From the NCBI RefSeq assembly GCF_005930495.1, contig NZ_SJEX01000003.1, positions 62,001 through 126,000 of the forward strand: a stretch of DNA of 64,000 nt, read 5' to 3'. This DNA comes from Modestobacter excelsi. Lineage in GTDB: Bacteria > Actinomycetota > Actinomycetes > Mycobacteriales > Geodermatophilaceae. The notes beneath the pieces are model-generated. The model did no database searches. It was not told where the DNA came from and worked only from the letters and a program-made list of their open reading frames with translations. Position numbers and translations under genes: made by a program. Below, piece after piece: positions 19,496 to 62,100 of this stretch (within the stretch, counting starts at the first letter, position 1; the number at the start of each line of letters is the position of its first letter).

Positions 19496-20125
19496 CTACG
19501 CCGGCGACCGGCTGCTGGGCACCCGGGCGGTGGGCGCCACGGGGAGCACCTCGACGGCCGGCGACCCGGTGGGGAGCAGGGCGGCGGCGAGCGCCGCAGC
19601 CAGCGTCGCGCGGAGCGCCTCGTCACGCCGCGGCCGGGGGAGCTCCCGCAGCGCCAGGATCGACAGCTCCATCCGCCGGCGCCCGGCTCCGTACCGGTGC
19701 AGGGTGTCCAGCCGACGGGCCAGGCCGGCCAGCCGCCCGGTGTTGGTGACCAGGTCGTACCTCCGCTCGGCCCCGCGCAGGAGCCGGCGCAGCCGGGCCG
19801 GGTCACCGGCCGCCGCGGAGGCGGCACGCACGGTGGCGCGGATGACGGCGGCGGTCCGGCGGGCGTCCGGGGTGGCCCCCGTCTCCGCCAGCAGCGGCGC
19901 GAAACGGGCCAGCAGCGGGCGGCCGGCGTCGGTGGAGGCGTCGTTCACCAGCCGCGCGACGGTGGCGACCGTGGGGTCGGTGCAGGACGGGTGGTCGTTG
20001 AACGTCGTCCCGGCGAGGACGGAGACGTACTCCATCAGGCAGGCGCCGTCCTCCGGCGACAGATGGGCACCCGCCCGGAGCTGCGGGAGACCCTCGGGTG
20101 CGGAGCGGGCATCGGACGGCTGCAT
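19496..20125 (-). CDS. Hypothetical protein
   Basis: 209 residues from ATG 20125. The middle reads MEYVSVLAGTTFNDHPSC and TVATVARLVNDASTDAGRPL, followed by a predominantly helical, Arg/Ala-rich region with LVTNTGRLAGLARRLDTLH. There is no signal peptide or membrane helix. I do not recognise a family. Codon use (strong G/C at third positions) and absence of stops support coding. The C-terminal 15 residues run into degraded sequence, so the natural 3' end may have been altered. Confidence 0.6.
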   Translation of the reverse strand: MQPSDARSAPEGLPQLRAGAHLSPEDGACLMEYVSVLAGTTFNDHPSCTDPTVATVARLVNDASTDAGRPLLARFAPLLAETGATPDARRTAAVIRATVRAASAAAGDPARLRRLLRGAERRYDLVTNTGRLAGLARRLDTLHRYGAGRRRMELSILALRELPRPRRDEALRATLAAALAAALLPTGSPAVEVLPVAPTARVPSSRSPA

Positions 20126-20676
20126 GGCGGGACCACCCCTCGGTCGGTGGACGACGGTGTCCGGTCCGGCGCCGCAGCCCTCGCTGCGACGTCGCGACCG
20201 GGCCCCCTGACTGTCACCTGTCCCGACCGCTGCCGCCTCCCCGAGCAGGATGAGCCGTGTCCGGGACCGGCTCGAGGCCGTCACGGCCGGGGGCGTTGCG
20301 GGGTCGTCCCCGCGAGGTGGTGCCCGTCCCTCCGGTGGCTCCTACGGTCGCGTCGCGGCGGGGAACACCCAGGACGGTCACCCCGCACCTCCTGCTGGTC
20401 GCGGCCTTCCTGGTCCTGGAGGTCAACGTGGTGACGTCCGCGCTGGTCCTCTGGGAGCTGGACGGCGGCGGCCCGGCCGGGCGCATCGTCGACCCGGCGC
20501 CGTTCCCGGACTCGAGTTCCCGCAGACGGGCACCGAGGGCCTGGTCGAACCGGGTCCACCACCACCGTCGGCTGCCGGGGGTGCGGGCCGACGCGACGTA
20601 GGAGACGGGTTCGGAGTCGCCCGATCCCGGCGCCGGAGGCCGTTGTCCACGGGGGTCATGGGGGCGATGCTGGTTC
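20126..20676. other. 551-base region without a confident gene
   Basis: Between a minus-strand hypothetical gene and the acyl-CoA dehydrogenase. A plus-strand frame at 20257-20601 (GTG start) contains one hydrophobic stretch, LLLVAAFLVLEVNVV, that could span a membrane. Its flanks are low-complexity and I see no ribosome binding site, so I do not call it. The region must hold the divergent promoters. Confidence 0.4.
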
Positions 20677-22623
20677 ATGGCGTCGAACCCGTCGTACGAA
20701 CAGTCGAAGCAGGTCGCCGAAGCGAGCCGTGAGACCGACTGGACCAAGCCGTCGTTCGGCAAGGAGCTCTTCCTCGGCAACTTCCGCCTCGACCTGATCC
20801 ACCCCCAGCCCGAGCTGGATCCGGCGGCGGTGGAGAAGGGGGAGGCGTTCCTCGACCGCCTCCGCACCTTCCTCACCGAGCGCGTGGACCCACGGCAGAT
20901 CGAGCGCGAGGCGAAGATCCCCCAGGACGTCGTCCAGGGGCTCAAGGACCTGGGTGCGCTGGGCATGAAGATCCCGGTCGAGCACGGCGGGCTCGGACTC
21001 AGCCAGGTCTACTACAACAAGGCGCTGGCCATGGCCGGCACCTGGCACTCGGCGATCTCAGTGCTGCTGTCCGCGCACCAGTCGATCGGCTTGCCGGAAC
21101 CGTTGCGCCTCTTCGGCTCCGAGGCGCAGAAGCGCGAGTGGCTGCCCAAGCTCGCCACGGACTCCATCTCGGCGTTCCTGCTCACCGAGCCGGACGTCGG
21201 CTCCGACCCGGCGCGGATGAGCACGACTGCGGTGCCGACCGAGGACGGCACCGGTTACCGGATCAACGGCAGGAAGCTGTGGGCGACCAACGGCGTGGTC
21301 GCCGACGTGGTCGTGGTCATGGCCGTCGTCCCGAGGTCCGAGGGCCACAAGGGCGGCATCACCGCCTTCCTCTGCCCGTACGACCGCCCGGGCATCACGG
21401 TCGAGCACCGCAACCAGTTCATGGGGCTCAAGGGCATCGAGAACTCGGTGACGCGGTTCGACGACGTGTTCGTGCCCAACGAGGACGTCATCGGCGGTGA
21501 GGGGAAGGGGCTGCGGATCGCCCTCACCACGCTGAACACCGGCCGCCTGTCGCTGCCGGCGATCTGCCTGGCGATGGCCAAGTACTCGCTCAAGATCGCG
21601 CGCGAGTGGTCGACCGAGCGCCAGCAGTGGGGCCAGCCGATCGGCCGGCACGACCCCATCGCGCAGAAGCTCGCCTGGCTGGCGGGCACGGCGTTCGGGC
21701 TCGAGGCGATGCTCGACGTGTCCAGCCGGCTGGCCGACGACAAGCGCAACGACATCCGCATCGAGGCCGCGCTCGCCAAGCTCTACGGCTCGGAACTCGG
21801 CTGGACCGCCGTCGACGAGATGGTCCAGGTCCGCGGCGGCCGCGGATTCGAGACCGCAGAGTCGCTCGCCCAGCGCGGGGAGAAGCCCGTGCCTGCCGAG
21901 CAGATGCTGCGCGACATGCGCATCAACCGCATCTTCGAGGGCTCGACGGAGATCATGCACCTGCTGATCGCCCGTGAAGCCGTCGACCAGCACCTGCAGG
22001 TCGCGGGGGACGTGCTGCTCGCCGGCACCGGCCTGGCCGGCAAGGCGAAGGCCGCCGCGAAGGCGGGGGCGTTCTACGCGCGGTGGTTCCCGACGCTGAC
22101 GACAGGCGCCGGTCAACGTCCCGGCTCCTTCGCGGAGTTCGGCGACCTGGCCAGGCACCTGCGCTACGCCGAGCGCCACTCGCGCAAGCTCGCGCGCTCC
22201 ACCTTCTACGCGATGGGCCGCTACCAGGCACGCCTCGAGCGGGAGGGCCGGCTGCTCGGCCGGATCGTCGACATCGGCGCAGAGCTCTACGGGATCGCGT
22301 GCGCGTGCGTCTACGCGCAGACCGTCGCCCGGGAAGACCCGGATCGCAGGCAGTCGGTGGTCGAACTGGCCGACCTGTTCTGCGGCCAGGCCCGCCGTCG
22401 CGCCGACCGGCTGTTCGCCGAGCTGTGGGCCAACGACGACGACGCCCAGTACCGGATCGCACAGGACGTGCTCGCCAGCCGCTACGACTGGTTCGAGCAG
22501 GACGTGCTCGACCCCGCGGGGAACGGCCCGATGATGCCGGCGCCCGCACCGCCGGCCGGCCCGCAGGTCGGGGACCCGGTGGCCGCGGCCGCGCCCAGGG
22601 AGGAGGCCACGGTCGCGCAGTAG
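20677..22623 (+). CDS. Acyl-CoA dehydrogenase, long VLCAD-like type
   Basis: 648 residues, well above the usual about 380, because an about 170-residue helical C-terminal extension follows the catalytic core as in VLCAD/ACAD9-type enzymes. Core signatures are FLLTEPDVGSDPARM and LKGIENSV. The catalytic Glu sits in RIFEGSTEIMHLLIAREA, the loop that carries Glu376 in MCAD. The enzyme makes the trans-2-enoyl-CoA in beta-oxidation using FAD. The start ATG at 20677 lacks a strong Shine-Dalgarno sequence. The surrounding genes do not form a beta-oxidation operon. Convergent with a small hypothetical gene three bases away. Confidence 0.93.
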   Translation: MASNPSYEQSKQVAEASRETDWTKPSFGKELFLGNFRLDLIHPQPELDPAAVEKGEAFLDRLRTFLTERVDPRQIEREAKIPQDVVQGLKDLGALGMKIPVEHGGLGLSQVYYNKALAMAGTWHSAISVLLSAHQSIGLPEPLRLFGSEAQKREWLPKLATDSISAFLLTEPDVGSDPARMSTTAVPTEDGTGYRINGRKLWATNGVVADVVVVMAVVPRSEGHKGGITAFLCPYDRPGITVEHRNQFMGLKGIENSVTRFDDVFVPNEDVIGGEGKGLRIALTTLNTGRLSLPAICLAMAKYSLKIAREWSTERQQWGQPIGRHDPIAQKLAWLAGTAFGLEAMLDVSSRLADDKRNDIRIEAALAKLYGSELGWTAVDEMVQVRGGRGFETAESLAQRGEKPVPAEQMLRDMRINRIFEGSTEIMHLLIAREAVDQHLQVAGDVLLAGTGLAGKAKAAAKAGAFYARWFPTLTTGAGQRPGSFAEFGDLARHLRYAERHSRKLARSTFYAMGRYQARLEREGRLLGRIVDIGAELYGIACACVYAQTVAREDPDRRQSVVELADLFCGQARRRADRLFAELWANDDDAQYRIAQDVLASRYDWFEQDVLDPAGNGPMMPAPAPPAGPQVGDPVAAAAPREEATVAQ

Positions 22624-22626
22624 GGG

Positions 22627-22974
22627 TCAGCCGGGGGCGTCCGCGGGACCGTGCGGGCCCCGCTCGTCGTCCTCGGGCCGCGCTGCCGGAGGCCGCGGGT
22701 CCGTGCGCTCCAGTCGCTGACGGATCGCCGCGACGTTGAGCGCCAGGTCCTCGAGGGCCTCGACGGCGCGCGTGCCGAGCGCGAACGTGAGGTTCTCGCG
22801 CTGCTGCTCGGCGCTGGGCTCGCGGTCGCCCTGCGACATCGCGGAGCGCTGGTGTGGACGACGCGTCGCCTCCGCCCACGGTTCGTCACCGCTGCCCGGA
22901 CTGCTGAACAGCTCGCGCAGCATCCGCTGGGCCGCCTCGAGGAACTCGCCCGGGTCAGGTCGGTTGCTCGCCAT
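22627..22974 (-). CDS. Small hypothetical protein
   Basis: 115 residues from ATG 22974, preceded by GAGGAGG eight bases upstream. A helical segment FLEAAQRMLRELF opens the protein and a second, LTFALGTRAVEALEDLALNV, lies in the middle. The C-terminus is acidic and proline-rich. No family is recognised. Overlaps nothing; convergent with the acyl-CoA dehydrogenase. The strong ribosome binding site and coding-like composition support it. Confidence 0.65.
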   Translation of the reverse strand: MASNRPDPGEFLEAAQRMLRELFSSPGSGDEPWAEATRRPHQRSAMSQGDREPSAEQQRENLTFALGTRAVEALEDLALNVAAIRQRLERTDPRPPAARPEDDERGPHGPADAPG

Positions 22975-23232
22975 CCGTTCGCCTCCTCGTCCACGTCGAG
23001 CATGGCACTGGCACGAGCGTCGGGCGACCGATGGGACCGCGCCGCGAAACGGTCACCTGGCCGGCGACGGGTGCCGAGCACCGCGAGCGCGTGCAGCGCC
23101 TCCGAGGGCGTCCGTGACGGCGGCGGCCAACCGGATCGGGGACCGGTCGGCATCGGTCGTCAGTGACGCTGCTCGCCCCGGTGCCGGCCGACGAGGCGGC
23201 GAGACCATCCGGCGGGCGCGCTCGGGCTACGC

Positions 23233-24495
23233 TCAGTTCGGCTTCGTCGGCGACCCACGCAGCTCCCCGGGCGGAGACGCGGGTGGTTCCTCCCCGAGAT
23301 CCCCCACCGGCGGAGCCTGGGGACCGGCTGCATCCTGCGCCACGCGGCGGGTGTCCGCAGCGTGGTCGTCCTCGCCCCCCGTCTGCGGCGAGCGGGTCGC
23401 CGTCGCCAGGTCGACCCGGGCCGCCACCAGCTCGGCCCGGACCGCCGCCGCCTCGGCCACTGCCCGGTCGCGGGCCTCCTCCGCCCGCAGGCGGTCGCGC
23501 CGGCTCTCCTCGGCCTGGCGCTCGGCACGCTCCGCGCGGGCCTCCTGCACCCGGGCCCGTTCCGTGGCGTCCTCGGCTCGGGCGTTCGCCGCCTGCACCC
23601 GGCCCGCCGCGGCCGTGGTCTCCAGCCGGACCGCCGCCTCGGCCTGCTCGGCACGGCCGACCGCCCGCGCCGCGTCGGCCCGGGTGCTCTCGGCCTCTGC
23701 GCGGGCCGCGCGTTCGGCTTCCAGCGCCCGGTCCCGCGCCGCCTCGGCAGCCGTCGCCCGGTCCTGCGCCGAGCGGGCGTCGGCGAGCGCGTGGTCCCGT
23801 GCCTCCTCCGCCCGGGCTGTCTCGCTGCGGGCGGACCCGGCGTCGCGCACCGCCGCGGCCCGGCGTCGCTCGGCCTCCTGCCGCGCCTCCTCGGCCTGAC
23901 GCGCGGCGGCTCCGGCAGCGTCGGCGGTGGCGCGCGCCTGCCGCGCCTCTTCCTCGGCGGCCTCAGCGGCCTCCCGCGCGCCGGCGGCCTGCTCCTGGGC
24001 GGCGGCCGCCTCCTCCCGGGCGCCGGCCGCGTCGGCGTCGGCCCGCGCCGCCGCCTCGAGCGCCTCACGCGTCGCGGTCTCGGCCACCGCCCGGATCCGG
24101 TCGGCGAGGGAGGCCCGCTGCTCGGCCTCGGCGATCTCACGGCGCGCGTCGGTGCGGATCGCCGCCCGCTCGACCTCCAGCAGCTCCGCGTCGGCGGCCC
24201 GGGTGAGCACCTCCCGGGCGCGGCCCACCTGCTCCTCGATCGCCGTCAGGGTCTGCCGGAACCGGTCGGCGGCCTCGGTCAGGGTCTCCGCGGTGGGTCC
24301 TCCCGGCCGCGGCGCAGCGGGCCGCTCCGACGCGGCGGAGGAGCGGACGGCGGCCTCCGCCCGGCGGGCGGCGAAGGCGGTCGTGCGGTTGTGGTCCGGG
24401 CGCGGGCAGTACGAGGACCGCCCTCCGGTGGGGGGCGGCGGAGCCACCGGCCGGTCACAGCTCGGATAGGCGCACGTCGCCGTGCCAGCGGTCAT
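23233..24495 (-). CDS. Zinc-finger protein with long coiled coil
   Basis: 420 residues. The N-terminus has a likely zinc site C8-x4-C13 ... C30-x4-H35 (CAYPSCDRPV and SYCPRPDHN). From about residue 75 to 365 the sequence is an almost uninterrupted Ala/Glu/Arg-rich heptad array (AEQRASLADRIRAVAETATR, ARQAEEARQEAERRRAA), predicting an about 290-residue coiled coil. The C-terminus is disordered and proline-rich. It is divergent from a tyrosine recombinase, with 117 bases and two palindromes between them. The architecture recalls DNA-organising or partition-type accessory proteins such as KfrA in general shape only; no homology is claimed. A role with the recombinase is inferred from position. 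Confidence 0.8.
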   Translation of the reverse strand: MTAGTATCAYPSCDRPVAPPPPTGGRSSYCPRPDHNRTTAFAARRAEAAVRSSAASERPAAPRPGGPTAETLTEAADRFRQTLTAIEEQVGRAREVLTRAADAELLEVERAAIRTDARREIAEAEQRASLADRIRAVAETATREALEAAARADADAAGAREEAAAAQEQAAGAREAAEAAEEEARQARATADAAGAAARQAEEARQEAERRRAAAVRDAGSARSETARAEEARDHALADARSAQDRATAAEAARDRALEAERAARAEAESTRADAARAVGRAEQAEAAVRLETTAAAGRVQAANARAEDATERARVQEARAERAERQAEESRRDRLRAEEARDRAVAEAAAVRAELVAARVDLATATRSPQTGGEDDHAADTRRVAQDAAGPQAPPVGDLGEEPPASPPGELRGSPTKPN

Positions 24496-24512
24496 GAGGT
24501 CCAGTCTGCGCT

Positions 24513-24555
24513 CGTTCGTGCGTTCAATCCGATCGACACGACGAACGAACGAACG
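24513..24555. promoter_or_regulatory. 13-base-arm inverted repeat (possible operator)
   Basis: CGTTCGTGCGTTC (24513-24525) and GAACGAACGAACG (24543-24555) pair at 12 of 13 positions around a 17-base spacer. The right arm is itself a run of GAAC repeats. It lies directly upstream of the coiled-coil gene start (24495) and 58 bases before the recombinase ATG, as expected of an operator in a divergent control region. Confidence 0.55.
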
Positions 24556-24579
24556 TGGAACCCTGGGAGGGCGGACGGC

Positions 24580-24603
24580 ATGAGCGGGCTGCGCACTCCA
24601 TAA
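24580..24603 (+). other. Seven-codon mini-ORF before the recombinase
   Basis: GGGAGGG at 24565-24571 is an excellent ribosome binding site, but it serves ATG 24580, whose frame (MSGLRTP) ends at TAA 24601-24603. That frame is the same as the recombinase frame beginning at ATG 24613, ten bases further on. The TAA lies inside the inverted repeat at 24595-24619. It could be a leader peptide with reinitiation, or a natural start that was interrupted. Confidence 0.5.
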
Positions 24604-24619
24604 TCAACTGTTATGGAGT
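24595..24619. promoter_or_regulatory. Perfect 9-7-9 palindrome at the recombinase start
   Basis: ACTCCATAA (24595-24603), spacer TCAACTG, TTATGGAGT (24611-24619). The right arm contains the ATG of the tyrosine recombinase. Its size and layout resemble a tyrosine-recombinase core site (two arms round a 6-8 base crossover region). It is the most A/T-rich short patch nearby. CATAAT at 24599-24604 is also a good -10 placed for a leaderless start at 24613. Both readings are inference. Confidence 0.55.
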
Positions 24620-25647
24620 CCTCCCGACCGCTCGTCCCGACGTCCGGTGCAGCCGCCGCCGAGGTGTCAGCGGGGGCCGCGGGCGGCGACGGGGGACTGG
24701 TGCTGCCCGGGGACGTCGAGTCGGTGGGGCGGTACCTCACCGCGGCCAAGGCCGAGTCGACGCGGAAGGCCTACGACGCGGACTTCCGTGCGTGGTCGAC
24801 GTGGGCCCGGCAGCGCGGGTTCAGCCCGCTGCCGGCGGCCGACGCCGCGGTCGCGGCCTACCTCGCCGCGCTCAGCGACGCCGGCGCCAGCCCGCGCACC
24901 GTCGCCCGGCGGCTGTCCGGCATCGGGCACGCGCACCGGGAGGCCGGGCACCCCAGTCCCACCGAGCACCCCGGCACCCGGGAGGTCCTCCGCGGCATCC
25001 GCCGCACGGCCGCGCGCGGTGGCCGTCGTCCGAAGAAGGCCCGGGCGGTCGACACCCAGACGATCCGGGCGCTCGTCGAGGACCTCCCGGACGGGGTGGC
25101 CGGGACGCGCGACCGGGCCCTGATCCTGACCTCCTTCGCGCTGGGGCTGCGGGCCTCGGACGCCTGCGGGCTGGACGTGGCCGACCTGGCCCCGGCCGGG
25201 CACGGTGGCCTCGACGTCACCGTCCGCTGGTCGAAGACCGACCAGGAGGGCGCCGGGGAGGTGCTGGCGCTGGCGCCCGGCACGCGGGCGCAGACCTGCC
25301 CGGTGCGGGCGCTGCAGGCGTGGGTGGACGCGGCGGGTCTGGCGGCGATGCCCGGGCCGCTGTTCCGCAGCGTCGGGCGGGGAGCGCAGCCCCGGATCGG
25401 CCGGACGCGGATGGCCAGGTCGTCGGTCCGGCTGGTCCTGCGCCGGGCCGCCGCGAACGCCGGCGTCCCGCTGGACGGGCTCAGCCCGCACAGCCTGCGG
25501 CGGGCGTTCGCGACCGAGGGCTACAAGGCCGGGGTCAGCGAGCGCGAGCTGGCCCGGACGGGCCGGTGGGCGTCGGTGACCACCCTGCGGGGGTACGACG
25601 CCAGCAGCCGCTGGGCGGCTCCGGCGTCCGCCCGGCTCGGCCTCTGA
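24613..25647 (+). CDS. Tyrosine recombinase/integrase
   Basis: 344 residues. The N-terminal SAM-like core-binding domain spans about residues 35-125 (YLTAAKAESTRKAYDADFRA). The C-terminal catalytic domain has all key residues: Arg in GLRASDACGLD, Lys in RWSKTDQEG, the HxxR box as SPHSLRRAF, Trp in GRWAS where many have His, and the Tyr nucleophile in LRGYDASS. It should cut and rejoin DNA at paired inverted sites. It is not next to phage, transposon or tRNA genes. The first 35 residues are Ala/Gly-rich. No ribosome binding site precedes ATG 24613, so leaderless or coupled translation is likely. Divergent from a zinc-finger/coiled-coil gene. Confidence 0.92.
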   Translation: MESSRPLVPTSGAAAAEVSAGAAGGDGGLVLPGDVESVGRYLTAAKAESTRKAYDADFRAWSTWARQRGFSPLPAADAAVAAYLAALSDAGASPRTVARRLSGIGHAHREAGHPSPTEHPGTREVLRGIRRTAARGGRRPKKARAVDTQTIRALVEDLPDGVAGTRDRALILTSFALGLRASDACGLDVADLAPAGHGGLDVTVRWSKTDQEGAGEVLALAPGTRAQTCPVRALQAWVDAAGLAAMPGPLFRSVGRGAQPRIGRTRMARSSVRLVLRRAAANAGVPLDGLSPHSLRRAFATEGYKAGVSERELARTGRWASVTTLRGYDASSRWAAPASARLGL

Positions 25648-25821
25648 GCGGCGCCGGGTCGAGCCGGGGCGGGTGTGCGGCGCACCAGGTCGCGAGCCGT
25701 GGCAGGGAGCCTTTACAGCCGCCTGGTGCGAGCGGAGCATCGACCGCCCGGTGCGGTCCGGTGACCGGCTGGGTGCCTCCGGCCCGAGGGGCGGGCCAGG
25801 CGAGCGCCACCGGAGGTCGTG

Positions 25822-26820
25822 ATGCGGAAGCCCTCGCACTCCCTCGTGCCTTCTCGTCGTTCGGTGCTGGTCCTCGTCGCTGCGGTGACCGGCGGCCTGG
25901 TGCTCGCACCGTCGCCTGCCGCGGCGGACCCGCCCGCAGCCGTCGAGCAGGAGCTCATCGTGTTCGGTGGGGAGACCGAGGCCGGTACGCAGCTGTGGAC
26001 CGTGCGGCCCGACGGCACGCACGCGCAGCAGATCACGCACGTGGACGGAGATGCCGTCAACCCGGACTGGTCCCCGGACGGGCGCAGCCTCGTCTTCGAG
26101 TGGGCCCTGCCCGACGACGCGGGCGCACAACTCGCGGTCGTCGACGCAGACGGCGGGGACCTGCGCGTCCTGCCGGTCACCCGGCCGGACTGTGTCGACG
26201 CGAACCCGGCATTCACCGCAGACGGCCGGCGAGTGGTCTACCTCAACGACTGCCCGACGGAAGCCGCGCTGTACTCGCGTCCCGTCGACGGGAGTGGTGG
26301 ACCGCAACGCATCACCGCACCCGGCCCCGACGGCTACGACGAACCGAACCCCTCTCCCGACGGTCGGCTGCTGTCCTACATCCGGGTCGAGAACCGCGTC
26401 GAGTACCAGCAGGCGCTGACGGTCAGCCGGATCGACGGCACGGGGCCACGCGACCTGCTCCCGCCGTCCGAGGACGTGGCGGTCAAGACCGGCTGGTCCC
26501 CCGACAGCTCACATGTCGTGCTCACCACGGACGCCAACCAGATCGGTGATGCCCCGCTGGAGGCCAACGTCGCCACCATCGCGGTCGATGGCGGCGACCT
26601 GAGGTACCTGACCCACTACTCCGGAGGCGACCTGAGCGCCTTCGCGGGGTCGTACTCCCCGGACGGGCGCTGGATCGCCTTCCGGCTGCAGGACAACGCC
26701 ACCGGCGAGTCGGGGCTCTGGCGGATGCGGCCCGACGGGACACAGCGCAGCCTGGTCTTCAGCCGCGAGGGGCTGCGTCCGCGGTTCATCGACTGGGGAG
26801 GAACCCCATGCCCGTGGTGA
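25822..26820 (+). CDS. Secreted TolB-like WD40/PD40 beta-propeller
   Basis: 332 residues. A signal peptide (RRSVLVLVAAVTGGLVLAP, cleavage after PAAA near residue 37) leads to repeated PD40 blades. Each has a variant of the NPxWSPDGRxLxF motif: VNPDWSPDGRSLVFEW, ANPAFTADGRRVVYLN, EPNPSPDGRLLSYI, AGSYSPDGRWIAF. Such propellers bind partner proteins or peptides outside the membrane. There is no catalytic domain. ATG 25822 (or the adjacent GTG 25819) follows GGAGG at 25812-25816. Convergent with the YihY gene. Confidence 0.88.
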   Translation: MRKPSHSLVPSRRSVLVLVAAVTGGLVLAPSPAAADPPAAVEQELIVFGGETEAGTQLWTVRPDGTHAQQITHVDGDAVNPDWSPDGRSLVFEWALPDDAGAQLAVVDADGGDLRVLPVTRPDCVDANPAFTADGRRVVYLNDCPTEAALYSRPVDGSGGPQRITAPGPDGYDEPNPSPDGRLLSYIRVENRVEYQQALTVSRIDGTGPRDLLPPSEDVAVKTGWSPDSSHVVLTTDANQIGDAPLEANVATIAVDGGDLRYLTHYSGGDLSAFAGSYSPDGRWIAFRLQDNATGESGLWRMRPDGTQRSLVFSREGLRPRFIDWGGTPCPW

Positions 26821-26827
26821 GGGGAGG

Positions 26828-27817
26828 TCAGCCCTCGCCCGGGTAGGGCGGCGCGCTGTCCGCGACGACCGCCCCGCGCTCACCCAGCGGCTGCTCGGGC
26901 CCGACCGTCGAGTCGCGGGTGGTCTCCCGTTCGGCCTCGGCGTTGACCACCGCGCCCGCGATGACCAGGAACACGGTGGCCCACAGCCAGAACATGCTGA
27001 TCGCGACGCCCGCGAGGCCTCCGTACGTCGACTGGTAGTTGCCCAGCCGCTCGACGTAGGCGAAGAACCCGAGCGTGGTGGCCAGCCACAGCAGCGTCGC
27101 GACGGCCGAGCCGCCGGTGATCCACCGCCAGCGGGCCCCCTTGCGATCGGGGCCCCACCGGTACAGCACGGCGAGCACCGCGGTCATGACGCCGGCGAGG
27201 CACAGCCAGGCGAGCACGGGCGCGAGCGTGCGGACCACGCCGGGAGCCCCGGACAGCGATCCCGAGAGGGCGCCGGCCGCGGTGACCAGGGCACCCAGGA
27301 CCACGGCGCCACCGAGGACGAACAGGAGAGCGAGCCCGCTGCGACGGAGGAAGCCCCGGGTCTCCTTCTCGTGGTAGGCGAGGGTCAGCCCGTCGATCAG
27401 GTAGGTCATGGCGGTCGTCGCCGTGTAGAGCGCGACCACCAGCCCGGTGAGCCCGCTCCAGGTGTGCACCTGGGTGGATGCGGTCGTGATCGTCGTGAGC
27501 TGATCGGCCACCATCGGCCGGAGCTCGGTGGGCAGCATCCTGGTCACCCGGGACAGCTGCTGGAGCGCCTGCTCGGGGGTGTTGACCGCGCCGTAGACCG
27601 AGATCGCCGTCACCAGCACCGGCGCGATGGACAGGATCGCGAAGAACGCGACACCCGCGCTCTGCACCATGAGCCGGTCGCTGACCACGTGCACCAGCAC
27701 CCGCCGGAGGACGCGGCGCCAGCCCGCGGCGGAGATCTTCTGCGGCGAGTCGGCGTCACTGGCCTGCGGACGTCGTCCTGTCCGCGTCGCGCGCTCGTCT
27801 CCGGGAGCCCACGTCAT
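26828..27817 (-). CDS. YihY/RBN family membrane protein
   Basis: 329 residues with six predicted membrane helices. Family motifs are VQSAGVAFFAILSIAPVLV in the first helix, and YGGLAGVAISMFWLW with a VNAEAERET tail near the end. The family was once called ribonuclease BN, but members are polytopic membrane proteins of unsettled transport or lipid-related function. The N-terminal about 40 and C-terminal about 30 residues are charged and cytoplasmic. The start region is divergent from drrA with about 240 bases between. Confidence 0.9.
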   Translation of the reverse strand: MTWAPGDERATRTGRRPQASDADSPQKISAAGWRRVLRRVLVHVVSDRLMVQSAGVAFFAILSIAPVLVTAISVYGAVNTPEQALQQLSRVTRMLPTELRPMVADQLTTITTASTQVHTWSGLTGLVVALYTATTAMTYLIDGLTLAYHEKETRGFLRRSGLALLFVLGGAVVLGALVTAAGALSGSLSGAPGVVRTLAPVLAWLCLAGVMTAVLAVLYRWGPDRKGARWRWITGGSAVATLLWLATTLGFFAYVERLGNYQSTYGGLAGVAISMFWLWATVFLVIAGAVVNAEAERETTRDSTVGPEQPLGERGAVVADSAPPYPGEG

Positions 27818-28055
27818 GGCTCATCTCACCTGGGGCCGGTGGCGGTCGCAATACGGCTCTCCGCGCACCGGTGGTGAGCCGCCCGCCGTCGTCGTCATGG
27901 CGCGTCAGGACGCGGATCCGGATCGGGATCCCGCGGCCGGGATCACCCGCCGGGTGCGATGAGCCCGGGAGGTCGCCGGCGTCCGATGACTCCAGGGTCG
28001 ACCGCCGGTCAGACCTTGCACAGACGGCCGTGCCGGACCCGAGGTGAGGAAGCCG

Positions 28056-29045
28056 ATGAGCACACAGACCGCACTCGCGATCGACGCGCGCGGGCTCGGG
28101 AAGTCCTTCGGGGAGACCCGCGCCGTCGACGGGGTGGACCTCGCCGTGCCGGCCGGTGCCATCTACGGGGTGCTGGGCCCCAACGGTGCGGGCAAGACCA
28201 CCACCATCCGGATGCTGGCCACGCTGATCCCGCCGGATGCGGGGAGCGCCCGTGTCCTGGGGCACGACGTCGTGTCCGAGGCCGCGACGGTCCGCGAGCT
28301 GGTCAGCCTGACCGGCCAGCTCGCCTCGGTCGACGAGGAGCTCACCGGCCGGGAGAACCTCCGGTTGCTCGGCCGTCTCCTCGGCTACCCGCGTGCCGCC
28401 GCCAAGGACCGTGCGGACGAGCTGCTCGACGCCTTCGACATCGCCGAGGCCGGCGGCAAGCTGGTCAAGCACTACTCGGGCGGCATGCGCCGCCGGCTCG
28501 ACATCGCGGCGAGCATCGTGGTGACCCCCCGGCTGATGTTCCTCGACGAGCCGACCACCGGGCTGGACCCGCGCTCCCGCAACCAGGTCTGGGAGATCGC
28601 CCGGGCGCTGGTGGCCGAGGGGACGACGATCCTGCTCTGCACCCAGTACCTGGAGGAGGCCGACCAGCTCGCCGACGGCATCGCCGTGATCGACCGGGGC
28701 CGGGTCATCGCCGAGGGCACTCCCGCGGACCTCAAGGCCTCGGTCGGCACCGGCTCCCTGTACCTGCGGCTGCTCCACCCCGGGCAGCGCGCCGAGGCCG
28801 CTCAGCTGCTGGAGCGGACGGTGGGCCCGGTGGTGCTGGAGCCGGAACCAGCGGCCCTGTCGGCCACCGGAGCGGACGCCGGACGGGCGGCGATCGCCGT
28901 CGCCGAGCTCTCCCGTGCGGGCTTCCCGCTGGTGCACTTCTCCCTGCAGCAACCCAGCCTCGACGAGGTCTTCCTCGCGCTCACCGGCCACGCGGCGGAG
29001 GAGACGTCCCCGCTCTCCGACGACCTGCAGGAGCACCTGTCATGA
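28056..29045 (+). CDS. drrA: Daunorubicin-resistance-type ABC transporter ATP-binding protein
   Basis: 329 residues. Walker A is [14 protein letters not shown], the signature loop is [15 protein letters not shown] and Walker B is [15 protein letters not shown]. The C-terminal about 90-residue extension is typical of DrrA-type ATPases. It powers export of hydrophobic compounds through the DrrB channel. ATG 28056 is preferred to the GTG at 28044 because GAGG lies between them at proper spacing. The stop overlaps the ATG of the permease gene (ATGA), so the two are translationally coupled. Substrate is unknown. Confidence 0.93.
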
Positions 29046-29878
29046 CCGCCACCACGACGGCGCCCGGCTCCGCAGACACCGCAGCGGTGCGCCGGGCCAT
29101 CTCGTCCACCCCTCGGCCCACCCGGCCCGGGCCGCTGTCGGCCGCGCTGACCTTCGGCTGGCGGGGCATGCTGAAGGTCAAGCACGTGCCCGAGCAGCTG
29201 CTCGACGTCACCGTCACGCCGGTGATGTTCCTGCTGATGTTCACGTACCTGTTCGGCGGCGCGATCGCCGGCTCCACCAGCGCCTACCTGGACTACACGC
29301 TCCCGGGCCTGCTCGTGATGTCGGTGTTGTTCACGACCGTGTACTCCGGGGTCTCCCTGAACACCGATCTGACGAAGGGGGTCGTCGACCGCTTCCGCAC
29401 CCTGCCGATCTGGCGGCCGGCGCCGCTGCTGGGCTCGCTGCTCGGCGACAGCGTCCGTTACGTGATCGCCGGCACGGTGATCATCGTCGTCGGCGTCGCA
29501 CTGGGTTTCCGGCCCGACGGCGGCGTCCTCGGGGCGGTCGCGGCGCTGGGACTGGTCGTCGCCTTCTCGTTCGGCCTGTCCTGGGTCTTCTCGGTCCTCG
29601 GCCTGCTCATGCGGTCACCGAACGCGGTGATGAACGCCGGGTTCATGGCGATCTTCCCGCTGACGTTCCTGTCCAACGTCTTCGTCGACCCCGCCACGCT
29701 GCCGGGCCCGCTCGAGGCCTTCGTCGACGTCAACCCGATCTCCGTCCTGGCCACCGCCTCGCGGTCGCTGATGGCCGGTGCGCCCGACGGCACGGCGATC
29801 GTCGTCTCCCTGGCGGTGGCGGCCGGGCTGGCCGCGGTGTTCCTGCCGCTCACCACGCGGCTGTACCGCAGCCGCTGA
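29042..29878 (+). CDS. drrB: ABC-2 type transporter permease, DrrB-like
   Basis: 278 residues with six membrane helices characteristic of ABC-2 permeases ([76 protein letters not shown]). It carries the conserved [20 protein letters not shown] segment seen in DrrB. An N-terminal Thr/Pro-rich tail of about 30 residues precedes the amphipathic helix. It forms the channel for the DrrA ATPase encoded by the overlapping upstream gene. Confidence 0.93.
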
Positions 29879-29888
29879 GTCCTGGTGC

Positions 29889-29916
29889 CACCCTGCTCGG
29901 CACGCAGCAGGGCGGT
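29889..29916. terminator. Hairpin between convergent genes
   Basis: CCACCCTGCT (29889-29898) and AGCAGGGCGG (29907-29916) pair with one mismatch around an eight-base loop. It lies in the 37-base gap between the drrB stop and the stop of the transglycosylase gene, and is a plausible shared terminator. Confidence 0.5.
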
Positions 29917-30977
29917 CAGCGGCTGCCCTCCTCGGCGATCAGCTCGGCGACCTCCGCGGGCATCTCCGAGCAGTCGTCGTCGGAGTCCGGCTGGTCCTCG
30001 GCGAGGCCCTCGACGCCGGCGTCCTCGACCGGCTGGAAGCCCTTCTCCGCGATGTGCCGGGGCACGCGGGCCTGCGCGTTGAGGACGTGCGAGCGCGACA
30101 GCCAGCCGAGGCCGTCGTCCACCTCGAAGTCCAGCCCGCCGCCGGGTGCCCGCTGGACGTGACCGGGGGAGGGCAGCAGCCCGACCAGCTGGACGGCCTG
30201 GTCGACCGTCAGCGTGGACGGCGGTGTGTCGAAGTAGTACCAGCTGGCCGTGCAGATGCCGTAGACGCGCGGGCCGAGCTGCGCGTGGTCCACGTACAGC
30301 TCCAGCATGCGGCGGTCGTCGACCACCAGTGCCAGCTCCACCGACAGGCCGGCCTCGACCGCCTTGCGCCAGGCGCTCATCCCCTGGTTGAGGAAGAGGT
30401 TCTTCGCCACCTGCTGCGGGATGGTCGACCCGGACGGGTCCTCCTCGCCGCGGAGGTGCGCCTCGGCGCGGCCGTACAGCTCGTCCCAGGTGAACGCTCC
30501 CTCGCGGTAGGGAAGGGGCTGGTCCTCGTGCGCGATGACGGCGGCGAGGAAGTTGCGCGACACGTGCTCGACCGGCACCGACTGCTGGATGGCCCCCTGG
30601 CTGTTGGCCAGCATGAACGCCGTCGTCGGCGGGTCGATCCAGCGCAGCGACAGCAGCACCACGGCCTGCACGAGGAAGGTGACCGCCAGCAGCCGGAGCA
30701 CCCGTCGGGGCAGCCGGCGGCGCTCCCGACGCCTCGGCTCGTCCGCGGGCGGGGCCTGGCCCCTGCGCCGCCAGGTGTCCCGGCGACCGCGCTCGCGCGC
30801 AGGCGTAGCCGACGGCTCGGCCCAGGGGTCGGCCGGCGGAGCGGGTGCGCCGCCGTGCCGGGGGAGCTCGTCGCCGGCAACCGGCCGCGCCATCCGCCGG
30901 GTGGACGTCCGATCCGTCCCCTGCTGCCCGGGCGGGTCGTCGTCGGGCGAGCGGCGGCGGTGCGACGCGAAGGGCAT
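29916..30977 (-). CDS. Monofunctional peptidoglycan transglycosylase (GT51)
   Basis: 353 residues. An about 90-residue Arg/Pro-rich cytoplasmic tail and one membrane helix (VLRLLAVTFLVQAVVLLSL) precede a GT51 domain. The catalytic Glu lies in VIAHEDQPL, and the hallmark GSTIPQQVAKNLFL and the helix after it are intact, followed by ELYVDHAQLGPRVYGI. No transpeptidase domain follows, so it only polymerises lipid II. The usual FxxHxGhD segment after the catalytic Glu is replaced by LPYREGAFTWDEL, a divergent form. The acidic C-terminus is unusual. Confidence 0.85.
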   Translation of the reverse strand: MPFASHRRRSPDDDPPGQQGTDRTSTRRMARPVAGDELPRHGGAPAPPADPWAEPSATPARERGRRDTWRRRGQAPPADEPRRRERRRLPRRVLRLLAVTFLVQAVVLLSLRWIDPPTTAFMLANSQGAIQQSVPVEHVSRNFLAAVIAHEDQPLPYREGAFTWDELYGRAEAHLRGEEDPSGSTIPQQVAKNLFLNQGMSAWRKAVEAGLSVELALVVDDRRMLELYVDHAQLGPRVYGICTASWYYFDTPPSTLTVDQAVQLVGLLPSPGHVQRAPGGGLDFEVDDGLGWLSRSHVLNAQARVPRHIAEKGFQPVEDAGVEGLAEDQPDSDDDCSEMPAEVAELIAEEGSR

Positions 30978-59180: not shown

Positions 59181-62100
59181 GTGTTCGACCGCATCGCCGT
59201 GATCAACCGGGGCGAGCCGGCCATGCGGCTGACCCGTGCCGTCCGCGAGCTCAACGCCGAGCACGGATCGCGCACCCGGGTCATCGCCCTGCACACCGAG
59301 GCCGAGCGCCGGGCGACGTTCGTCCGCGCCGCCGACGAGGGCGTGCTGCTGCGCGAGACGGGGGCCGGCAACCCCTACCTCGACCACGACGAGCTCGCCC
59401 GGGCGCTGCGGGCCAGCCGCGCCGACGCCGCCTGGGTGGGCTGGGGTTTCGTCGCCGAGGACCCGGCGTTCGCCGAGCTGTGCGCCTCGCTGGGGGTCGC
59501 CTTCATCGGGCCGCCACCCGAGGCCATGCGGCTCCTCGGCGCGAAGATCGAGGCCAAGGTGCTCGCGGAGCAGGCCGGCGTGCCGGTCGCGCCGTGGAGC
59601 GGCGGCCCGGTGGAGGGCGTTGAGGACGGCCGCCGGCACGCGGCGGTCATCGGCTACCCGCTCATCGTCAAGTCCCGGAGCGGCGGCGGCGGCCGGGGCA
59701 TCCGGATCGTCCGGTCCGAGGCCGAGCTGGAGGAGGCGCTCACCCGCACGCAGGCGGAGGCGGGGCGCACCTTCGGCGACCCGACCGTCTTCATGGAGCG
59801 CCTGGTGGAGGGTGGTCGGCACGTCGAGGTGCAGGTCATCGCCGATCAGCACGGCACGGCGTGGGCGCTCGGGGTCCGCGACTGCTCGGTGCAGCGGCGC
59901 AACCAGAAGGTCCTGGAGGAGTCCAGCTCGCCGGCCCTCAGCCCGGAGCAGGACCGGTCGCTGCGGGAGTCCTCCATCGAGCTGGTGAAGGCGGCCGGCT
60001 ACGTCGGCGCGGGCACCGTCGAGTTCCTGTACCAGCCGCAGGAGGAGCTGTTCACCTTCCTCGAGGTGAACACGCGGCTGCAGGTGGAGCACCCCGTCAC
60101 CGAGGAGACCACCGGCCTGGACATCGTGAAGCTGCAGCTGCACGTCGCCGCCGGCGGCCGGCTCGAGGGCGACCCACCTGCACCGTCCGGCCACGCGATC
60201 GAGGCCCGGCTCAACGCGGAGGACGCCGAACAGGGCTTCGCGCCCGCCCCCGGCCGGGTCGTGCTCATGCGGCTGCCGACCGGCCCAGGCGTCCGGGTGG
60301 ACACCGGGATCGGCGTCGGTGACGTCATCCCGCCGCTCTACGACTCCATGATCGCCAAGGTCATCGCCTGGGGCCGGGACCGGCCCGAGGCGCTCGCCCG
60401 CCTCCGCTGCGCCCTGCGGGAGACCACCGTCGTGCTGCGCGGGGGCACCACCACGAAGTCCTTCCTGCTCGACCTGCTGGACCGGCCCGAGGTGGCGGAG
60501 GGGACCGCCGACACCGGCTGGCTGGACCGCACGGGCGCCGGGAGCCGCGTCGAGACCGCCGGCGACGCCTGGCTGGCCCTGGTCCGGGTGGCCATCGACG
60601 TCGCGGACGCGGAGGAGGCCCGCGAGCTGACCGCCTTCCTCGCCTCCGCGCGGGGCGGCCGGCCGCGGGCCCCGCACGAGGTGGGCCGGGTCGTGGAGCT
60701 GGGGTACCGGGGCCAGGCGTACCGGCTGAGCGTGGCGAGGGTGGGGCCCGACCGCTACCGGGTCGAGCTCGACGACCGGTCCGTGGACGTGGACGTGGAC
60801 CGGCTGAGCGAGCTGGAGAGCCGGCTGACGGTGGGGGAAGACCGGTTCTCGGTCGTCGCGGTCCAGGGCACCGGTTCCCACCTCGTCGAGGTCGACGGCG
60901 TCACCCACCGGATCTCCACCGACGTGGGCGGGGTGGTGCGCGCCCCGGCACCCGCGGTCGTCGTGGCCGTGCGGGTGTCCGCCGGCCAGGAGGTCGAGGC
61001 AGGCCAGACGCTCCTCGTGCTGGAGAGCATGAAGATGGAGACGGCGGTCCGGGCACCGTTCGCCGGCCGGGTCCGGGAGGTCCGCGCCGCCGCCAACGCC
61101 CAGGTCGACGCCGGCGCCCCGCTGCTCGTCGTCGAGCAGGCCGGCGGCGACGTCGAGGAGGCGTCCGGCGAGCGGATCGCCCTGCCGGAGAGCTCGGGCA
61201 CGGCCGCCGGCGGTCCCCGGGACCGGGCGCTGTCGCTGCTGGCGGCGCTCCGGTCGCTGATCACCGGGTACGACATCGGTGCGGGCCACGGCAAGGACCT
61301 CGTGGCGGCATACCGCAGTGCCCGGACCGAGCTCCCGCCGGACGATCCGGAGCTGCTGCACGCCGAGCTGGCAGGTCTCACCACGTTCGCGGACCTGTGC
61401 GACCTGTCCCGCAACCGCCCGGCCAGCGAGGAGGAGGAGGCCGACCAGCAGGTCCACAGCCCCCGCGAGCACTTCCACGCCTACCTGCACTCCCTCGACG
61501 TGGAGCGGGAGGCGCTGCCGGAGAGCTTCCGCGGACGGCTGCGCCGGGCGCTCGCCCACTACGGCGTCGGCGAGGACCTCGAGCCGGGTCCGGCCCTCCA
61601 GGCCGCGGTGTACCGGGTCTTCCTGGCCCAGCAGCGCATCGGCGACCAGCTGCCCGCCGTCCTCGCGCTCCTCGACCGCTGGCTGACGGTCGGCCTCCCG
61701 CCGTCGGATGCCGCACGGTCGGAGATCGCCGAGGTGCTCGACCGGCTCATCGGCGCGACGCAGCTGCGCTACCCGTCGGTGGGTGACCTCGCCCGGGCGG
61801 TGCGGTACCGCTACTTCGAGGAGCCGGTGGTCCAGCGGGCCCGCCAGGAGGTGCTGGACGAGGCGGAGCGGCTGCTGACCGAGCTCGACGACGCCGACGC
61901 GCGCGGGGGCACCAGCGACGACGTGGCCCGGATCGAGGCGCTGGTCGCCAGCCCCGAGCCGTTGATCCGGCTGCTGGCCCAGCGCTTCGTCCGCCCGACG
62001 AGCAAGCCGGACCCCATCGTGGAGGTCCTCACCCGCCGCTACTACCGCAGCCGCAGCCTGCAGGACGTCCGGTCGTCCCTGCTCGACGGGCACTCAGCGG

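Follow-up and report, generated by a model that had tools for sequence, protein, structure and literature searches.

A Cre-type tyrosine recombinase gene of the actinobacterial family Geodermatophilaceae is joined, at its very start, to a palindrome with the layout of a recombinase core site. The proposal of an earlier note on this DNA, that the start of the gene contains such a site, is supported: the palindrome is conserved in all 18 genomes in which a close ortholog of the recombinase was found. On balance, we regard the locus as probably a chromosomal, mostly vertically inherited module of the Cre/lox type that represses itself and is additional to the XerCD/dif system. Its features, given as positions in the window (i.e. 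the whole 64-kb stretch of DNA that was analysed), are as follows:

23233–24495, minus strand: divergent partner gene, its product with an N-terminal zinc-finger-like motif (CxYPxC...YCxxPDHN) and a long tail
about 23400–25660, no strand: conserved two-gene module, delimited by comparing 20 kb of the window with 20 other regions (blastn)
24509–24555, no strand: second inverted repeat, made of GTTCG/CGAAC units, between the two genes and nearer the divergent start
24595–24619, no strand: palindromic core-like site, ACTCCATAA-TCAACTG-TTATGGAGT (left arm 24595–24603, centre 24604–24610, right arm 24611–24619)
24599–24604, plus strand: CATAAT, a −10-like hexamer read from the sequence as a probable leaderless promoter, ending 8 nt before the ATG
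24613–25647, plus strand: Cre-type tyrosine recombinase, 344 aa (Pfam PF00589 and PF02899)

The perfect 9-base arms around a 7-base centre, first described in the earlier note, are confirmed, as is the position of the recombinase ATG (24613–24615) inside the right arm. Because the left arm holds TAA, an in-frame stop upstream of the recombinase at 19/19 orthologous sites, the reading frame opens within the palindrome. By itself, the palindrome is weak evidence, a repeat of this size not being rare by chance: the window has six perfect inverted repeats with arms of at least 9 and a centre of 6–8 bases, and block shuffles (n = 10) have one to nine each. Repeats with arms of at most 50% G+C number two of these six (the palindrome at 24595 and another at 60049) and none in the 10 shuffles. 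It is conservation across relatives that sets the palindrome above chance; an accidental origin, which the shuffle counts would allow for one sequence, is ruled out by the family-wide conservation of the arms. The 64-kb window contains no tRNA gene, in line with the earlier remark that none is near, and an RNA family at the locus was rejected, with no Rfam match at gathering score in 20000–30000.

We searched 112 genomes of the family for CTCCATAA-N7-TTATGGAG, allowing up to two mismatches. Matches were found in 21 genomes, 18 with perfect arms and three (G067, G068, and G032) solely with two mismatches; these strays are excluded from the count of 18. The perfect-arm genomes, here termed clade A, carry 19 copies, each over the start codon of a recombinase ortholog. 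The metagenome bin with two copies (G011, loci L068 and L069) has recombinase starts with differing 7-base centres, TGTTCTT and TGTTCTG, and may possibly contain two strains. A protein search of 59 relatives and of 26 genomes from the genus of G026 found close orthologs in 11 of the former (besides distant matches) and in seven of the latter, and all genomes with a close ortholog by this search fall among the 18.

Across the 19 loci, all 16 arm columns are invariant and the 7-base centre takes eight forms; none of 73 flanking columns is invariant, a figure that excludes the three to four columns touching the arms, which are partly conserved and likewise never invariant. Invariant arms with a variable centre form the pattern that would be expected of a site bound by two protomers with a free centre. 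Coding constraint is not a ready explanation for the right arm, since the residues that follow MES, MEF, or MER vary strongly among the orthologs. The outer bases CTC and GAG pair in 19/19 loci, with GAG never replaced by GAA.

The recombinase has a Phage_integrase domain (PF00589, above cut-off) and a SAM-like N-terminal domain (PF02899). The full catalytic set claimed for it earlier is present (R180, K208, H293, R296, W319, and Y328): an alignment of 85 sequences shows no variation at R180, K208, H293, and R296 and very little at Y328, and one of 17 sequences shows none at W319. The R-K-H-R-[H/W]-Y set and the catalytic domain together place the protein, as far as its sequence indicates, in the tyrosine recombinase (integrase) superfamily. 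Values of dN/dS of 0.07–0.13 in seven pairs, with the variable N-terminus excluded, point to strong purifying selection. The protein is neither XerD nor XerC proper (57 bits against a cut-off of 329.6 and 47.8 against 335.15, respectively) nor a member of NF001399 (66.2 bits against 279). Among solved structures, its best relatives are those of Cre. The AF2 model built from the 85-sequence alignment, which replaced a poor one from 17 sequences (pLDDT 64), has a mean pLDDT of 90.2; its top Foldseek match is Cre (E 1.9e-13, probability 1.00), and the best 33 Foldseek rows are all Cre or the Cre derivative Tre. Compared with Cre (VIA), the model gives Z 27.2 over 297–299 residues at an rmsd of 2.6–2.7, a better fit than to XerA, the integron integrase, XerH, or lambda integrase; the integron integrase IntI (2a3v), for instance, is a lower match at Z 18.5. 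The predicted fold is that of a Cre-like two-domain recombinase.

A sister clade (clade B) of 14 Geodermatophilus genomes encodes a homolog with 78–100% identity to the G026 protein and about 60% identity to the window recombinase. The window palindrome is absent from all 14 genomes (arm-pattern search, up to two mismatches); in ten of them, a different inverted repeat of 10-7-10 layout, placed by eye and with 6–9 of 10 pairs, lies between the two genes. Its commonest form is CTTCCGAGAA-GCACCTA-TTCTGCGAAG, its centre is about 10 bases farther from the ATG than the clade-A centre, and in five of the ten genomes the ATG follows the right arm by 2 nt (by eye). The remaining four genomes (G099, G104, G105, and G107) have an insert between site and recombinase, and their repeat is weak (5/10 pairs). 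In G099, G104, and G107 (loci L254, L258, and L263), an endonuclease VII-like gene forms the insert (the match to PF02945 was tested for G104), and in G105 (L261) a remnant does; two loci that at first seemed to be without a site, L109 and L112, are of a type that has the insert between site and gene. In the insert-bearing loci, the recombinase seems to use a new start of its own, and the site beside the endonuclease VII-like insert rather resembles the usual clade-B site in reverse complement. An inverted-repeat site near the gene is thus present in 18/18 clade-A and 10/14 clade-B genomes and weak in the other 4/14, and the inverted repeat with a 6–8-base centre near the gene that marks Cre/lox-type systems appears to be present.

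How these parts would work together can be outlined conditionally. The palindrome is likely the recombinase's own target: one tyrosine recombinase would recognise it as a core site, with one protomer on each 8–9-base arm and crossover in the 7-base centre. The bound recombinase should also shut off its own gene, because the site lies over the gene's likely leaderless promoter and start codon. The substrate would be another copy of the same DNA (sister chromosome or chromosome dimer) or a matching site on an incoming replicon, rather than an inverting or excising segment, since there is one site per genome. Such a site would be tolerable in a start codon because recombination between identical sites restores both genes.

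The promoter itself is suggested by position. A leaderless promoter has a −10 of the form TAnnnT; in clade A, CATAAT is fixed at 19/19 sites, and TACTCT or TATTCT takes this position, again 8 nt from the ATG, in five sister-clade loci (by eye). A scan of 24400–25800 found neither a sigma-70 consensus promoter nor an intrinsic terminator. The palindrome, then, likely overlaps a leaderless promoter. Autorepression at such an overlap has a precedent in intS of prophage KplE1, the promoter of which overlaps attL and for which negative autoregulation has been demonstrated (PMC2951348). In that system, mutation of the core site reportedly left repression unaltered, so the repressing contact there is not the core (PMC2951348). 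The recombination region thus overlaps the integrase promoter in both cases; in contrast to the window locus, which has one palindromic core in a window free of tRNA genes, the KplE1 attachment site adjoins a tRNA gene and is served by a directionality factor, with a core that is not needed for repression.

Repression could also be all that is left of the site's function. That the recombinase binds the palindrome solely as an operator, with no recombination taking place there today, is a minority reading that we nevertheless take seriously. It accords with the single site per genome in those checked, with the lack of any exchange seen at the site, with the overlap of site and likely promoter, and with the presence, among the lower fold matches of the model, of SroF, YopR, and MrpR, integrase-fold proteins that are named as repressors or regulators of phages. 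An operator, however, would not explain why the catalytic positions are conserved across 85 sequences in a recombinase under such strong purifying selection, and it has no need of a centre of equal length, seven bases, in both clades.

The gene had been described as solitary, which is wrong: the divergent gene at 23233–24495 accompanies it and is readable at 18/19 clade-A sites and at 9/9 clade-B loci examined. The long tail of the partner protein is Ala/Glu/Arg-rich and has the look of a coiled coil (by eye). The protein has no family in Pfam, PHROGs, or NCBIfam, and, with no match in the plasmid collection, a plasmid home was rejected. Beyond about 23400–25660, neighbours differ in most of the 20 compared regions. 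The next gene on the recombinase side, TolB-like as named by eye (25819–26820), stands between the recombinase and a YihY-like gene; by blastn, G007 covers the corresponding stretch, which G006 and G008 lack. In our preferred reading of the locus, the zinc-finger-like partner would be a regulator or an accessory factor.

That partner is the most obvious candidate if the palindrome is instead the operator of another DNA-binding protein, a reading to which we give little credence. The divergent gene does adjoin the site wherever it is readable, the two genes having a common intergenic region. Yet it has a different inverted repeat nearer its own start (24509–24555), with similar repeats in L003, L005, L006, and L012 (by eye), and this repeat is possibly the divergent gene's operator. 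Furthermore, lox-like repeats are found near recombinase relatives outside the family, and the partner is without a match in the plasmid collection. In the sister clade, GGATG/CATCC units are found where the window has CGAAC/GTTCG (by eye).

The earlier note had itself offered the alternative that the site is simply the −10 of a leaderless promoter. One part of this stands, in that a −10-like hexamer does overlap the site; the hexamer alone is insufficient, because it leaves unexplained the outer paired bases, the invariant arms with their variable centre, and the different repeat of the sister clade. In its fuller form, this alternative takes the palindrome as incidental, a −10 (CATAAT) and a conserved start (ATGGAGTC) that merely look palindromic together. 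The exact 8-nt spacing at the 19 clade-A sites and the five sister-clade loci read by eye is what speaks for it. Nevertheless, CTC and GAG belong to neither the −10 nor the start codon and still pair throughout, and the sister clade keeps its own inverted repeat at its more distant position. Moreover, the −10 is at the left arm in clade A and extends over centre and right arm in the sister clade; since it occupies different parts of the site in the two clades, the inverted repeat is not merely a by-product of the promoter. We consider an incidental palindrome very improbable.

The number of sites bears on what kind of recombination could occur. The genome of origin (5.26 Mb in 178 contigs) has the full 25-base site once (up to three mismatches), and a 15-base core (up to one mismatch) occurs once in each of eight clade-A genomes, this one included. 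Two observations had been named earlier as counting against a recombinase site, namely, absence of the palindrome from orthologous loci and its absence elsewhere; the palindrome is in fact present in the orthologous loci, and it is indeed found nowhere else in the genomes checked. The two genes flanking the site have a largely common history. Recombinase and divergent-protein distances correlate (r 0.66, with 0 of 2000 permutations as high), and trees of the genes on either side are broadly congruent, with the main groups common to both; these comparisons cover 17 of the 19 loci, two being omitted for having too little of the partner gene. The exchange of everything upstream of the coding frame, which the earlier note had envisaged, is not seen in these 17 loci. 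Since members of the two genera are intermingled in both trees, the module may to some extent have been transferred between them.

A start-codon module for inversion, integration, or capture, as the note had proposed, is accordingly unsupported and highly unlikely: the architecture of the site would suit it, and archaeal SSV-type integrases do hold a site inside their own gene, but there is no second core in the genome of origin or in the eight genomes searched, the trees of the two sides broadly agree, and no recombinase relative is present in the examined stretches of 12 phage-collection contigs that have the arm pattern. A phage source of the site was rejected on the same 12 contigs; for the partner protein, that search gave one trivial match of 14 residues.

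The module coexists with the standard chromosome-resolution machinery. Each genome in two overlapping sets (19 and 26 genomes) yielded a single dif, and 14/14 genomes searched yielded two XerCD-type genes, of which one passes the curated 279-bit cut-off and the other, at 262–277 bits, falls below it; with these present in all genomes searched, a sole Xer system of the XerS/XerH type was rejected. Module and dif share a contig in 16 of 32 module-bearing genomes, about 77–306 kb apart, and the recombinase gene points towards dif in all 16. Requiring a common contig selects for short distances, a bias that only the five single-contig genomes escape: 214 kb in G008, 91 kb in G020, 273 kb in G103, 259 kb in G104, and, from a rounded genome size, about 304 kb in G099. 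As a yardstick, we sought the YihY-like neighbour gene in 19 module-bearing genomes. It lies about 170–430 kb from dif in the eight genomes with both on one contig, beside the module and on another contig than dif in three, and on another contig than both dif and module in two (G101 and G119); six genomes have no ortholog. Because this neighbour is placed similarly, conserved macrosynteny may explain much of the module's location, and proximity to the terminus is weakened as a sign of function.

More distant relatives also tend to have a repeat near the gene. For 133 relatives, found in other bacteria and on phage-collection contigs, we counted inverted repeats with a left arm ending in ATAA, ACAA, GATA, or AGAA, in 250-base bins (112–133 per bin). 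Of these lox-like repeats, 16 and 8 fall in the two bins flanking the gene start and 17 in the 24 other bins combined, with at most five in any one of the latter; the motif was picked after a first look and some loci are near-identical, so this is an enrichment rather than a clean test. At 20 of 23 closely inspected distant loci, the repeat ends 8–60 bases ahead of a plausible start. Among six plasmid relatives, two (from Komagataeibacter and Roseomonas) have a lox-like repeat by score, at most about 85 bases upstream, that of Alicyclobacillus curvatus has an imperfect one by eye, and in three none was found. The Frankia relatives have no clear inverted repeat (by eye). Their TATCGT at 7 or 8 nt before an ATG in five loci (by eye) was considered as support and dropped, because the frame begun by that ATG, where read on, is short, stops at the next start, and is not the recombinase frame; as read by eye, L116, L117, and L130 seem to have a short frame, its ATG just after a −10-like hexamer, that overlaps the recombinase start through TGA/GTG. 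A site over the start codon thus appears to be a feature of this clade, and a site near the gene appears commoner. Systems by which plasmids and phage-plasmids resolve multimers are the probable ancestors of the module, which would now work next to the host XerCD/dif.

Modules of a recombinase with its site are already known. The loxP site has 13-base arms around an 8-base centre in an inverted-repeat layout near the recombinase gene. Cre/loxP of phage P1 is alike in offering the closest solved fold, a single recombinase, and an inverted-repeat site near the recombinase gene. It is unlike in that the window recombinase is 21–25% identical to the Cre structures and chromosomal, with a site over the start codon, shorter conserved arms (8–9 against 13 bases), and a 7- rather than 8-base centre. 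The actinobacterial dif, which is served by XerCD, has a similar core (ATAA-TCgACa-TTATG against ATAA-TCaACtg-TTATG in the window), but a 6-base centre, other outer arms, and a separate locus. XerS/difSL and XerH/difH each consist of one recombinase with its site adjacent or near, as a module, with difSL at the terminus (PMC5357621; PMC2731167). The window locus is alike in its single recombinase with its own site close by; those systems replace XerCD, whereas the window module coexists with XerCD-type genes and dif, 77–306 kb from dif where measurable. Another single-recombinase system is XerL of Legionellales (PMC9765430). The recombination site of archaeal SSV-type 'suicidal' integrases lies within their own gene (PMC8371274); their gene is split on integration, whereas the window gene would be restored by recombination between identical sites. 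In the open-licence literature, we found no chromosomal module under purifying selection beside XerCD/dif with a probable core site doubling as promoter and start codon of its gene.

Functionally, the module may resolve chromosomes, trap plasmids, or only regulate itself. More speculatively, and with less than even confidence, we suggest that this Cre-type system of the Geodermatophilaceae, existing besides XerCD/dif, cuts DNA where its own gene has its leaderless promoter and start codon, that its expression would be switched directly whenever sister chromosomes synapse or exchange strands there, in the part of the chromosome closer to the terminus, and that two lineages re-specified site and enzyme together. 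The locus offers a natural set of close recombinases with matched, diverging sites in which recombinase/site co-evolution can be studied, and new recombinase tools acting on short sites might be derived from it. For the family, the recombinase/site pairing, unchanged in close relatives, suggests a self-controlled recombination system beyond the standard one.
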